Origin: Limisalsivibrio acetivorans
GTDB taxonomy: Bacteria > Chrysiogenota > Deferribacteres > Deferribacterales > Geovibrionaceae
DNA: 64,000 nt
Direction of reading: 5' to 3'
NCBI RefSeq assembly: GCF_000421105.1
Contig: NZ_ATWF01000001.1
Span: 1,809,407 to 1,873,406, forward strand
How positions within the stretch are numbered: the first letter of the stretch is position 1; every line of letters begins with the position of its first letter. A program made the translations under genes and the position numbers. The notes under the pieces were generated by a model, which saw nothing but the letters and a program-made list of their open reading frames with translations, had not been told where the DNA came from and did not search any database. This document shows positions 1,964-23,548 of this stretch, piece by piece.

Positions 1964-3943
1964 TTACTTAATGGATGAATTATAATTATCTAATTCTTCT
2001 TTAACTTTCTTGAAAGATAGTTTTAGTTGTTCTAAGTCCGTTTTGCTAATCTTCGATGCATGGGCGTCAACTTTTCTTAGTTTATTTATGTTTCCTAAGT
2101 GAAAAGTAAAATCACTTTTTTCGAGACTTATATGATTTTTAAACTTGTCCCATTCAGAGCAAATTATTTTGATCAAGATGTTAAAGTATATTTTATTTTT
2201 GTTTGGATCAAATAACTCTCTGTATGAGAGTGAACTAGTACTTTTCTTATCCATATGTTTGGAAATGATATTCTTTGATTCTGAACCATAGGCTGTGTAA
2301 ATAATGCTTTTTACAAATTGTCGTAAATTCTCCTCAATATAAGTCCTTTCTCCCAATATATAATGCTTTATGTCCATATCAGACTTTAATGGTTGAGACT
2401 GAGTATCTTTTAGCAAGTATTCTTTCATACTTTCAATATTAAAGACATATTTATTGTTACCTCTTTTGATGACATTATAACCTAATAAATGGCCAATTAT
2501 ATCAGGTTGTTGATTACAAAAATCATTGAAAGTTTCTATATCATCTTCAGCAAGTAATACCAGTAATTCATATTCAAAATCATACGAAGTTTTAAGTACT
2601 TCAAGAATCAGTTGGAAATATTTGTTACTATTATTCAGGAAAGTCTCTTTGCTGTCTTTATAATGGTCTTTAGTTATAGTCAATGGCTTGGTATCGTTTT
2701 TGAAAGAAGAAAAGAGGTGACTACACATATGGCGAATTAAAAAAGGATGCCCACCATAATCGTCATTGAGAAGATGAAAAACTGATTCTTCAAATTTAAG
2801 TCCCATTCTGCGTCCTAGTGTTCTAACCATATCTCTTGTTTCGTTGTGCTGAAAAGAAGCAACATACTCATGGTGGACGATATTATATAGTGGATTATCA
2901 ATATTATTAACTTTAGTACTTTCAATGCACGTGGGGTTTGTGCCAGCAATTAAAAAAGAACCTAAGTTATGATTGCTTTGCAGAGTTGCTCTTATTGATT
3001 GCCAGAAAAGTACAAAGTCATTGCCTTCATTCCAATGATATGAAGGAGATAGCCCATTTGACATGTGCTCAATTTCATCAAAAATTAAAAGCACGGGTTT
3101 ATTTTGGTGCTTTTTCGATATCTCCACCAACGATTTTTCGAAATAAAAGGAAGCATCCTTTTCAGAGAATAGAGAGTCATCATATATTGTTTCATATTTC
3201 CCTTCAGATCCTTGCTTTCTGAAAATATAGCTGAGAGCCTCATTCCATCGTCTTTGGTGGAAGCCCGGATCTTGGCAGTCAATATGGATATATGGATAGC
3301 TATCATTTTCTAAATGCCTTCTCAAAGAGTAAATTATTGAAGTCTTACCTGTTTTTCTAAGGCCAAAAAGTCCAGAATGCTCTTTTGATTTGAATCTATT
3401 AAATAACGTAGCCACAATTTCTTTTCTGCCAAAGAAAAACCTTTCAGTTTTCAGTGGCGATTCGAAAGCAAATAGATCTCTACTGTAAAGGTACTTTATA
3501 AATCGATTTCTAATTCTAAAGTCATCATGAAATTGAAATTCTTGGTAGGAGAAAGGCACAATAATTTGTGTCTCAACGTCATCTACGATGTCTTTTATAG
3601 ATTCCTCAGGGTTCATATCTTTTGTTATTACAACTAAACATATTTTATCAATACGGTTTGAGTGTGACTTATTAATTATGGCAATTGCTTCAAGCAACCT
3701 ACTGTCGGTCTGTTTATAAGGAGAAAAAACTACAGCAATTTCTTTATTGAAGTTGAACATATCTCTGTAGTGTTCTGTTGGGTTTATTAGAAAACATTTA
3801 TATTTAGAGCCTTTGACATCAATATCACTCTTGGTGTACGTGATTGATAGCTCGTTAGCCCATGCGCTTGTTATAATATTGTGTTCTTCATCTGTAAATC
3901 CATAAAGATTAACACTAGGCTTAATTCCCTTATCATTTGCCAC
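1964..3943 (-). CDS. P-loop ATPase (STAND/AAA-like) with C-terminal HEPN-like domain; candidate defence protein
   Basis: Predicted 659 residues. GTG start at 3943, with GAGG seven bases upstream. Residues about 45-135 alternate strand and helix (Rossmann-like, unassigned). FFGR at 169-172 leads into the NTPase: Walker A GLRKTGKTS at 194-202, Walker B LLIFDE at 285-290, and a sensor-like IAGTN later. The C-terminus (about 535-659) resembles Swt1-type HEPN modules: GERTYIEENLR, a W..F stretch, then INKLRKVDAHA, which contains R623-x4-H628, the RX4-6H signature of HEPN RNases. The gene is strongly AT-rich against its neighbours, is isolated, and sits beside a gene remnant and repeat debris, so transfer is likely. 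P-loop plus HEPN proteins often act in abortive infection; that role here is inference. Confidence 0.7.
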   Translation of the reverse strand: MANDKGIKPSVNLYGFTDEEHNIITSAWANELSITYTKSDIDVKGSKYKCFLINPTEHYRDMFNFNKEIAVVFSPYKQTDSRLLEAIAIINKSHSNRIDKICLVVITKDMNPEESIKDIVDDVETQIIVPFSYQEFQFHDDFRIRNRFIKYLYSRDLFAFESPLKTERFFFGRKEIVATLFNRFKSKEHSGLFGLRKTGKTSIIYSLRRHLENDSYPYIHIDCQDPGFHQRRWNEALSYIFRKQGSEGKYETIYDDSLFSEKDASFYFEKSLVEISKKHQNKPVLLIFDEIEHMSNGLSPSYHWNEGNDFVLFWQSIRATLQSNHNLGSFLIAGTNPTCIESTKVNNIDNPLYNIVHHEYVASFQHNETRDMVRTLGRRMGLKFEESVFHLLNDDYGGHPFLIRHMCSHLFSSFKNDTKPLTITKDHYKDSKETFLNNSNKYFQLILEVLKTSYDFEYELLVLLAEDDIETFNDFCNQQPDIIGHLLGYNVIKRGNNKYVFNIESMKEYLLKDTQSQPLKSDMDIKHYILGERTYIEENLRQFVKSIIYTAYGSESKNIISKHMDKKSTSSLSYRELFDPNKNKIYFNILIKIICSEWDKFKNHISLEKSDFTFHLGNINKLRKVDAHASKISKTDLEQLKLSFKKVKEELDNYNSSIK

Positions 3944-4145
3944 AACATTACCTCACCTTATGTGAATATATTGCATGTAATATACGGAATCTTAATGTTA
4001 CTGTCAAATGAAAGGCAGTATTAAATTTAATATTGCGTATTCTGTGTGCGAAACTTTTGTAAGCAAGAATGTTATTAAGGCATATATGGGTTTTTGTTTA
4101 TCTAAGGTATGCCGTTTTGCTTAAGAGCACGTAGCGTAATCAAAT

Positions 4146-4169
4146 AAAAGCCCCTTTCGGGGGCTTTTT
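4146..4169. terminator. Bidirectional intrinsic terminator
   Basis: AAAAGCCCC pairs with GGGGCTTTT around a short loop, with T-runs on both strands. It lies just past the stop of the minus-strand gene remnant at 4180-4300 and upstream of the ATPase gene, so it would end minus-strand readthrough from the remnant. Confidence 0.75.
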
Positions 4170-4179
4170 TTGATTAAAC

Positions 4180-4300
4180 TCACCATTTTTCATAAACAAT
4201 CTCGGTACGCATCGGATTCTCATCCTCCAGATACCCAGCGATAAAGCTAACCTTGAAGCTTTTATCCAAGAGCAGTTCTTTGAATCCAGACCCTAAATAG
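4180..4300 (-). pseudogene. C-terminal remnant of an unidentified gene
   Basis: On the minus strand an open frame ends in ...GYLEDENPMRTEIVYEKW and a TGA at 4180-4182, directly before the terminator at 4146-4169. There is no start codon in a sensible place, and upstream the frame runs into repeat sequence shared with 13480-13540. I read it as the tail of a gene cut by repeat insertion or deletion. I do not recognise the protein. The protein-like composition and terminator position support it, but a short non-coding frame is possible. Confidence 0.35.
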
Positions 4301-4372
4301 TTCCCTGCGATCTTTGCTTTAATATTTATACTCGAAATTAGTCACTAGTTATTATTTCAGGCTTTTCTCTCC
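4295..4372 (+). repeat. Partial copy of the mosaic repeat (right half of module A)
   Basis: The sequence from AGTTCCCTGCGATCTTT through CGAAATTAGTCACTA matches, with several substitutions, the segment at about 13480-13540 and, inverted, at about 24725-24785. Only the right half of the module is present. The rest of 3944-4460 shows no further gene. Confidence 0.6.
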
Positions 4373-4403
4373 ACTCAATTCTTATTACCTCATCTTATTA
4401 AGC

Positions 4404-4432
4404 AAAAAAAGGCCCCCGAAAAGGGGGCCCTT
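4404..4432 (-). terminator. Intrinsic terminator of the PKD lipoprotein gene
   Basis: GGCCCCC (4411-4417) pairs with GGGGGCC (4423-4429) across a five-base loop, with a seven-T run on the minus strand. It lies about 30 bp past the stop of the gene at 4461-6860. Confidence 0.85.
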
Positions 4433-4460
4433 TGTAGAACATTCAATTGATTATAAAAAG

Positions 4461-13569: not shown

Positions 13570-14665
13570 GCAGATTGTAATAGCAATCTTATCACTAATA
13601 TGAAATAAAAAAGGCTCATGCCATGCAGTCTTCACCACAAAAACTTTCTCCCGAAGGAGGAGCACAGCAATGAGCCATAAGCATCTTAGCATTAGAGATC
13701 GAGAAATACTAGAGCGTCTACTTCGCCAGGGATACTCACAACGTAAAATATCCGCAATATTAGGCATTACACAATCTGCTGTAAGTCAGGAAATCAGTCG
13801 TAATAAGGATTGCTGTAACAGATATCGAGCTAAAGCATCCCACTCTCGAGCCTTACGTAGGCGCAAAAAGACTAAGGGCGGATTTCGTAAGGATAAGGGA
13901 TTTTTGTTAAACTATGTCCGAGAGAAACTAGAACAACACTGGTCACCGGAGCAGATATCCGGTCGTTTAAAGAGAGATTATCCGTGTGAGTCAGATAAAC
14001 ATATATCATTTAAGAGCATATATTTATGGGTACGCAAGGGTATTGACCATGAGTACAGGGATGTTCCCTTACGTGGCTACCACAAGTATTTCAGGACACA
14101 CCGAGGTCGTAAACGCACTATAGGTATAAAGGCAGGAAGTCGTTCAGCCAAGACAGACCTTCCTCGCATTGAGGACCGTCCAGAAGAGGGTTTTGGAGTA
14201 TGGGAGAGCGATCTTATAAGTGGTTACAACAAAAGCGGTTATATAGCAACTTTTGTAGAGAGAAGTACTGGTTTTATATGGGCTGAGAAACTTGAGAACA
14301 AGTCTATAAAAGAATATAACCGCTCAGCAATAGAGTGTATAAGGCGCTTTGGCAGCTCTAAGTTTAAATCCATAACAGTAGATAGAGGTAAAGAGTTTTA
14401 CGGTTATAAGTCAGTAGGAGTACAGTTCTATTTCTGCAATCCGATGAGTCCTAATGAAAGAGCACTTAACGAAAACATGAACGGGCTTCTTCGGCAGTAT
14501 TTTCCGAAGAGAACAAGCTTTAAAGATGTAAAGAGTGAAGATGTATACAGGGCAGTAGAAGAGATCAACAATAGGCCTAAGAAAAGATTTGGGTATATGA
14601 CAACTATGGAAGTACTTGATAGCATGGGCATAGAGATGTGATAAGATTCAATTTACAATTCGCAC
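13570..14665 (+). mobile_element. IS30-family insertion sequence
   Basis: About 1.1 kb. The subterminal inverted repeat ATTGTAA (13574-13580) and TTACAAT (14653-14659) lie just inside the ends. The flanks join exactly to the unoccupied site at 24681-24703 (inverse strand) if a 2-bp GC duplication (13568-13569 and 14666-14667) is assumed; the ends could shift by 2 bp. Insertion is in the loop of the hairpin CATACTTTTG-gcg-CAAAAGTATG. The single transposase gene is intact, so the element may be functional. Confidence 0.85.
13670..14641 (+). CDS. IS30-family transposase
   Basis: 323 residues, full length for the family. The N-terminal helix-turn-helix (QGYSQRKISAILGITQSAVS) is followed by HWSPEQISGRL and a DDE catalytic core: Asp in WESDLISG, Asp in TVDRGKEF, Glu in NERALNENMNG. 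GAAGGAGGAGC precedes the ATG. It cuts and joins element ends; IS30-type enzymes commonly choose palindromic targets, which fits the insertion site here. The reading frame is intact. Confidence 0.94.
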   Translation: MSHKHLSIRDREILERLLRQGYSQRKISAILGITQSAVSQEISRNKDCCNRYRAKASHSRALRRRKKTKGGFRKDKGFLLNYVREKLEQHWSPEQISGRLKRDYPCESDKHISFKSIYLWVRKGIDHEYRDVPLRGYHKYFRTHRGRKRTIGIKAGSRSAKTDLPRIEDRPEEGFGVWESDLISGYNKSGYIATFVERSTGFIWAEKLENKSIKEYNRSAIECIRRFGSSKFKSITVDRGKEFYGYKSVGVQFYFCNPMSPNERALNENMNGLLRQYFPKRTSFKDVKSEDVYRAVEEINNRPKKRFGYMTTMEVLDSMGIEM

Positions 14666-22264: not shown

Positions 22265-23548
22265 ATGAAATTGAATTATAAGAATGTTTTGGGCATACTC
22301 ATATTCTTCTCTGTTTTTTACTTAGTGATTTCAAGTGAAGGTATTGGAAATATTATATTTCAAGAGTTGATGAGCAAGCCTGAAGATACTGCCCGAGCTG
22401 GAATTAAAGAAAATTCAAAATCAGTTCCTGATACTGGTCTAGTAGCAAACGATAACTACACCGTTGAAATAGATGAATTGGTTCAATCAAAAATTACTAA
22501 TGACCCTCTATCAAAATTACAATGGAACTTGCGTTCAGTTTATGGTGATGACTACGCTGAAAACTATAATGAGATAAACAACAATGCCCCGAGAGAAGTT
22601 ATAGTTGCTGTAATAGATCGAAGCGTGAATGTAAAGCATGATGACTTGCGTAACAGAGTAACAGAGGGATGGAATTTTAGGACTGGTAAAAAGGATAGTA
22701 CGGAGAGTTATGATAACAAAACTCCGAATTCTTCTGTTTACCATGGAGGATGCGTAGCCTCTATCATTGGGGCAGAAACTGGAAATGGGATTGGAATGGC
22801 TGGCATTTTCAGTAAGGCTGTCATTATGCCGATAAGCACTAACTTAGACAATATGGCTAATGCTATTAAATATGCAGTAGAGAATGGAGCAGAAGTTATT
22901 CATATAGGTGGAGGTGTAGATGAATTAATTATTCCCACATATTTTACTGAAAATGAAAATAAGTTCCGTACCGGCTTATACAGCGAAAAAAATATAGATA
23001 TCTTGAAAAGTATCCGCTCTGCATTAGATTACGCATACGAAGAAGATATTGTTGTTGTAACAGGAGCTGGTAATACAGGCACTTGGGAAAACTATATGAT
23101 GCCCGCCAGCACTAGGACAATAAGTGTAGGCCCCCATAATATACATGACTGCATTTCTTCTCATGCTTCATATTCTTTTACATATGAGATTTTTGCGCCC
23201 GGGGGTAGTAGGAAAAAGATTAACAATTTTAGAGAAATTTACTCTCACCTTAATCTGAGTGATAAAATAATTTTTAGTAGCCACAATGCGAATTTTGATG
23301 ATGTATTGTGTGCTGTTGGTAAAGATAAGTATTCATATCTGACACTTGGTTCAGCTGCAATACCCCATGTATCTGCAGCTGTAGCATTGATAAAGTCGTA
23401 TAAACCTGAATCATCAGTAGAAGAAGTCCGAAATATTTTACAAATGAGTTCTGAAGGCTTGGACAGTTGCAGGAACTTGCTAGAAGGGCTCGGGGGCAGG
23501 CTAAGCATATATAATATTTACAAATTATTAGTAAATGAGGACGATTGA
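22265..23548 (+). CDS. Membrane-anchored or secreted S8 (subtilisin-like) serine protease
   Basis: 427 residues. An N-terminal hydrophobic segment (about 9-23) predicts export or anchoring. The catalytic triad is complete: Asp118 (VAVIDRSVNVKHDDL), His160 (YHGGCVAS, where canonical HGTHVAG has diverged) and Ser363 (LGSAAIPHV, where the usual GTSMA is altered). The oxyanion Asn270 sits in GAGNTG. No prodomain of known type, and no sorting domain at the C-terminus. It is AT-rich, has no clear Shine-Dalgarno, and starts 25 bp after the end of IS copy 1 and stops 10 bp before IS copy 2. Activity is plausible but the altered motifs leave doubt. Confidence 0.82.
   Translation: MKLNYKNVLGILIFFSVFYLVISSEGIGNIIFQELMSKPEDTARAGIKENSKSVPDTGLVANDNYTVEIDELVQSKITNDPLSKLQWNLRSVYGDDYAENYNEINNNAPREVIVAVIDRSVNVKHDDLRNRVTEGWNFRTGKKDSTESYDNKTPNSSVYHGGCVASIIGAETGNGIGMAGIFSKAVIMPISTNLDNMANAIKYAVENGAEVIHIGGGVDELIIPTYFTENENKFRTGLYSEKNIDILKSIRSALDYAYEEDIVVVTGAGNTGTWENYMMPASTRTISVGPHNIHDCISSHASYSFTYEIFAPGGSRKKINNFREIYSHLNLSDKIIFSSHNANFDDVLCAVGKDKYSYLTLGSAAIPHVSAAVALIKSYKPESSVEEVRNILQMSSEGLDSCRNLLEGLGGRLSIYNIYKLLVNEDD

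Follow-up and report, generated by a model that had tools for sequence, protein, structure and literature searches.

Among ordinary chromosomal genes and outside any defence island, the 64,000-nucleotide stretch of Limisalsivibrio acetivorans DNA analysed here (the window) carries a gene for a P-loop ATPase of 659 residues, the C-terminus of which a first-pass annotation had read as a HEPN-like RNase. This raises the question of whether the protein is an immune ATPase in its own right and, if so, which of its parts senses and which one acts. We put at roughly 65% the probability that it is a stand-alone, horizontally moving immune ATPase of the abortive-infection type with a C-terminal HEPN RNase effector. 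The features referred to below are as follows.

1964–3943, minus strand: open reading frame of 659 aa, comprising an N-terminal domain, a STAND/AAA ATPase, a winged-helix-like region and a C-terminal HEPN domain
3476–3943, minus strand: N-terminal alpha/beta domain, residues 1–156 (AF2, Foldseek, conserved residues)
2396–3475, minus strand: STAND/AAA ATPase module with winged-helix-like tail, residues ~157–516 (Pfam, Foldseek, conserved motifs)
3338–3364, minus strand: Walker A motif GLRKTGKTS, G194–S202 (sequence and conservation)
3074–3091, minus strand: Walker B motif LLIFDE, residues 285–290 (sequence and conservation)
1967–2383, minus strand: C-terminal Swt1-like HEPN domain, residues ~521–659 (Pfam match at 536–643, AF2)
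2321–2335, minus strand: E537-x3-R541, second HEPN motif (Ex3[KR]), invariant in 77 sequences
2060–2077, minus strand: R623-x4-H628 (RKVDAH) within INKLRKVDAHA, predicted RNase active site (conservation)
3944–4460, no strand: intergenic stretch with an ORF remnant and a dispersed repeat copy, part of the surroundings and functionally separate from the ATPase gene

Architecture and conserved motifs

The open reading frame starts with GTG, and about 7 nt upstream of it AGGTGAGG reads, by eye, as a Shine-Dalgarno-like stretch. A genome scan returned at least 157 relatives with the same architecture, from many bacterial phyla and one methanogen; 80 of the 157 were kept, and 77 full-length members, 26–41% identical to the window protein, were used for conservation. 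The Walker A motif at 194–202, the Walker B motif at 285–290 and R623-x4-H628 all lie at the residues where the first-pass annotation had placed them. G194, G199, K200, S202, D289, E290, R623 and H628 are invariant in the 77 full-length relatives, as are E537 and R541, and N620 is kept in at least 90%. Since the key residues show this invariance, the motifs are more than chance resemblances.

The full-length AF2 model, built on the 77 relatives (pLDDT 92), lays the protein out as an N-terminal domain (1–155), the ATPase, a winged-helix-like region (~440–516) and an almost all-helical C-terminus that runs from 522 to 658. Pfam places AAA_35, AAA_14, AAA_22 and nSTAND1 matches at about 165–430, and in the family alignment the FxGR, Walker A, Walker B and GGHP (GxP-type) motifs are invariant or nearly so. 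The nearest solved folds to the whole model, as found by Foldseek, are the archaeal ATPase_2 proteins 2qen and 2fna (E ≤ 6.2e-9), with Avs4 at rank 7 and Avs3 at rank 18. By sequence, a PDB search with the single protein gave only SidK matches at chance level, and a profile matched 2fna weakly. The assignment as a STAND-type ATPase is thus borne out by both the Pfam and the fold matches.

The HEPN identity proposed for the C-terminus is supported by the PF18731 match together with invariant R623, H628, E537 and R541. HEPN_Swt1 (PF18731) matches residues 536–643 in Pfam with E=3.5e-5 and 24.5 bits, just under the curated cut-off of 27.5 bits; in a whole-genome family search the score is 28.1 bits, just over it, and 6 of 30 relatives match at E ≤ 0.01. 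We regard the window protein as a putative, borderline member of PF18731. The whole-model Foldseek search speaks neither for nor against a HEPN fold, because the ATPase dominates its matches. The Ex3[KR] motif, here E537-x3-R541, is one of the HEPN motifs set out in PMC3710099.

The RX4H motif noted at first pass is present in the window copy, which has the canonical x4 spacing, but x4 is the minority form in the family: R-x3-H occurs in 59 and R-x4-H in 26 of 85 scored rows. Judging from the at least seven changes between the two states on the family tree, R-x3-H and R-x4-H are probably both workable. Might the domain nevertheless be catalytically inactive and work by RNA binding? The published HEPN spacing is Rx4-6H, outside of which the R-x3-H of most members falls, and the eukaryotic Swt1 HEPN domain is described as inactive (PMC3710099). 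However, R, H and Ex3R are invariant throughout the family, the window copy keeps the canonical spacing, and the repeated x3/x4 changes suggest that both forms work. We thus consider an inactive domain very unlikely and keep to the reading of the C-terminus as a predicted RNase.

A constant N-terminal body and an exchanged C-terminus

Residues 1–150 had been left unassigned at first pass, and a tentative fold can now be put in place of that gap. Modelled alone by AF2 (pLDDT 93.8), the N-domain has RPB5 as its best PDB fold match in Foldseek (E=7e-3, probability 0.99, TM about 0.36–0.42); RPB5 is matched repeatedly, and viral RPB5 proteins recur among the matches in a second Foldseek library. 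The N-terminal domain of RPB5 is a restriction-endonuclease-like fold that lacks an active site. It probably contacts DNA ahead of the transcription fork (PMC3906176). Based on the model, we tentatively describe the N-domain as an RPB5-N/restriction-endonuclease-like fold without a catalytic motif. The likeness may be one of fold alone, since no sequence similarity to RPB5-N is detectable; a profile of the N-domain also found no match among PDB sequences.

A fold of this kind could also be read the other way round, with the N-domain, a divergent nuclease of the restriction-endonuclease type, acting as effector and the HEPN domain at the C-terminus serving as an RNA-binding sensor or regulator, as in the usual NLR/Avs order. 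Indeed, the restriction-endonuclease-like proteins EndoMS and Can2 are found at low rank among the PDB fold matches of the N-domain, and one family member has weak Pfam REase matches (E about 0.007–0.008). Yet no catalytic set of the PD-(D/E)XK type (D...ExK) is conserved in the N-domain across the family alignment, the strongly conserved residues being instead P55, E68, R82, R97, P130 and D156. R623 and H628 are invariant, and the exchanged part is the C-terminus, which in one relative is replaced even by a kinase, as described next. Hence, we hold an N-terminal effector to be quite improbable.

The exchange was seen in a scan with a profile of the N-domain only, covering 395 genomes from the phylum of G060, a Pedobacter, and 398 from that of G067, a Pseudomonas. 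It gave 5 and 4 matches, including G060 and G067 themselves, with one copy per genome. The N-domain and ATPase are retained in all six new long matches, three of which end in a Swt1-like HEPN domain, two in an RNxxxH tail (L150, L153) and one in a Ser/Thr kinase. The last, L149:8269–10764, is a single example in which the N-domain and STAND body are joined to a C-terminal kinase (Pkinase E=1.1e-26). RN/RHxxxH tails are also present in four relatives from earlier scans (L080, L096, L097, L098). No Pfam family matches the RNxxxH tails, and because a profile comparison of the Swt1-like and RNxxxH C-termini showed no similarity, we term the latter HEPN-like on their motif only.

The C-terminal domain of the family is a swappable slot, occupied by a Swt1-like HEPN domain, by a helical domain with RNxxxH or, in a single case, by a Ser/Thr kinase. 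As this is the only part exchanged on a constant sensor-switch body, we take the C-terminus to be the effector and the remaining body to be sensor and switch, an arrangement opposite to the one usual in NLR/Avs proteins.

Distribution, transfer and genomic surroundings

Within its class the gene occurs in 1 of 48 genomes, and in two other phyla a family member is present in about 1% of the 793 genomes scanned. Relatives are also located on plasmid, satellite and viral contigs. Full-length relatives with 34–35% identity were found on Klebsiella IncF plasmids by a plasmid search, and a Deinococcus plasmid carries another. On viral contigs, an alignment query gave 10 loci and a single-protein query no match; annotated phage records likewise gave no match. 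The family tree interleaves phyla and is to be read with caution, many of its rows being metagenome bins and the window row standing on a long branch. The horizontal acquisition suspected at first pass is supported by the sparse occurrence in the class, the mobile elements and the mixing of phyla. The strong AT bias cited in its favour is real (GC 0.32 and GC3 0.29 in the gene, 0.51–0.52 in the two left-hand genes, 0.47 in the window), but in 76 of 78 loci the family gene has a lower GC content than the sequence around it (Wilcoxon p=2.2e-14). A bias shared by the whole family is thus of little use as a sign of transfer into this genome in particular.

The position of the window copy beside cox-type and ctaB-like genes, as judged by sequence reading, might suggest a housekeeping or stress-response ATPase with no link to conflict. 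Such a role is hardly credible for a gene that is absent from 47 of the 48 class genomes, AT-rich relative to its flanks, carried on mobile elements and mixed across phyla in its tree; with that occurrence in the class, the homologues do not look like core housekeeping genes. A shortened relative (L003, 1444–2769) is present in another genome of the phylum. It keeps the N-domain and the Walker motifs, but its sequence ceases to follow that of the family at some point ahead of residue ~380, and it has no HEPN domain; it is probably a deletion remnant.

At the window locus, the left, ctaB-like neighbour is present in 12 of 12 genomes of the bacterial family, and the right neighbour, a lipoprotein-like ORF, was found in this genome only. 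The adjacent gene debris reported at first pass is partly confirmed: the 517-bp gap holds a 45-codon ORF remnant, by reading, and a dispersed repeat. This intergenic repeat (4291–4364, ~57–74 bp) has about 40 matches in the genome at 75–97% identity. Near both ends of the debris, at 4143–4171 and 4405–4425, lie inverted copies, 233 nt apart, of a terminator-like GC-rich hairpin sequence. Around the gene we found no convincing direct repeat or target duplication as an integration footprint, and no integrase adjoins it. Farther along the window, an ORF at 13670–14641 reads like an IS30-type transposase inside an AT-richer stretch (13–16 kb), and a second AT-rich patch (GC 0.35 at 22–23 kb) contains an ORF that is subtilase-like by eye (22265–23548).

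Of 5,426 complete E. coli genomes, 5 carry the gene. Four of these five records were inspected, and in each the gene follows immediately on the integrase of a P4-like satellite at tRNA-Sec, with nothing else separating int from psu. One E. coli satellite orthologue is WP_021563882.1 (record NZ_CP030919.1). In two of the four examined (NZ_CP010122 and NZ_CP049845; L100 and L101) the orthologue is annotated as two ORFs and appears interrupted. The int–psu locus of P4-like satellites is a hotspot and reservoir of tested anti-phage systems (Rousset et al., PMC9122126). Ten neighbours picked by hand from other loci include SngA/SngB of Shango (L011), a Type I methyltransferase (L047), a Type IIG R-M protein (L060) and a mad3 model match (L040); in a tally of 148 neighbours by family, methyltransferase models were so abundant that it gave no measure of defence enrichment. 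A defence context is thus met with in the satellite hotspot and, at some relatives, in Shango or R-M neighbours. No family is encountered repeatedly beside the gene (at most 3 of 148), from which we conclude that it probably works on its own, in agreement with the single-gene system envisaged at first pass.

Carriage on Klebsiella IncF plasmids, P4-like satellites and a Deinococcus plasmid would also fit a gene that defends mobile elements against each other, by plasmid or satellite exclusion or by addiction, and not the cell against phage. However, most relatives are in genome assemblies, no antitoxin or maintenance partner recurs, and the systems tested from the satellite locus act against phage (PMC9122126). 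We consider such a role unlikely and proceed with that of a phage-defence ATPase.

Proposed mechanism and relation to known systems

In the mechanism that we propose, the N-domain, alone or together with the ATPase, would recognise an infection signal, which may be a phage protein or else some structure, in nucleic acid or in transcription, that is out of the ordinary. ATP-dependent assembly would then pair the HEPN domains as dimers, and the RNase so formed would cut tRNA or mRNA and stop the infected cell. More tentatively, and with clearly less than even odds, the family may represent undescribed single-protein immune receptors in reverse NLR order, in which a constant RPB5-like N-terminal sensor, detecting infection through a sign linked to nucleic acids or transcription, is joined to a STAND switch and to exchangeable C-terminal effectors (two HEPN types and a protein kinase). 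If true, this would be a widespread but sparse single-gene immune receptor with a C-terminal effector slot swapped between HEPN and kinase, and, at ~660 aa, a compact model of RNase activation by a STAND switch. As E. coli orthologues reside in P4-like satellites, the family can be tested directly in laboratory strains.

In the library searched, we found no paper on the family and no experiment on any of its members; it may nevertheless be listed already in supplementary tables. Among PADLOC models there is no full-length match, only weak partial ones to other families: the models of candidate PDC-M34B match the HEPN region (best E 1.9e-8 among 30 relatives) and that of candidate PDC-S01 weakly matches the ATPase region (best E 2.5e-5 among 30 relatives). 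The archaeal ATPase_2 proteins 2qen and 2fna, the closest solved folds to the ATPase part, have neither a HEPN nor an N-terminal domain, with target chains of ~350 aa.

With the Abi2/Swt1-like HEPN clade (PF18731; PMC3710099) the window protein shares the C-terminal helical domain with R-x4-H and Ex3R, and that work already tabulates Swt1-like HEPN domains fused to AAA+ or STAND ATPases. The present family differs in that it has no DUF499 match and no R-M partner, combines the C-terminal HEPN domain with a conserved alpha/beta N-domain, and mostly has R-x3-H. The anticodon nucleases PrrC and RloC are likewise NTPase-HEPN fusions and cleave RNA (PMC3710099), an activity that is predicted here; they have an ABC ATPase and belong to another HEPN clade, whereas the window protein matches AAA/STAND only (Pfam). 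Avs and other prokaryotic NLR-type STAND proteins, of which Avs3 and Avs4 are among the fold matches, share the STAND-like switch coupled to an effector. Their effector, however, is N-terminal and their sensor a C-terminal repeat domain, of which none was matched by Pfam or modelled by AF2 in the window protein; there, the effector-type domain is C-terminal, in a chain of ~660 aa.
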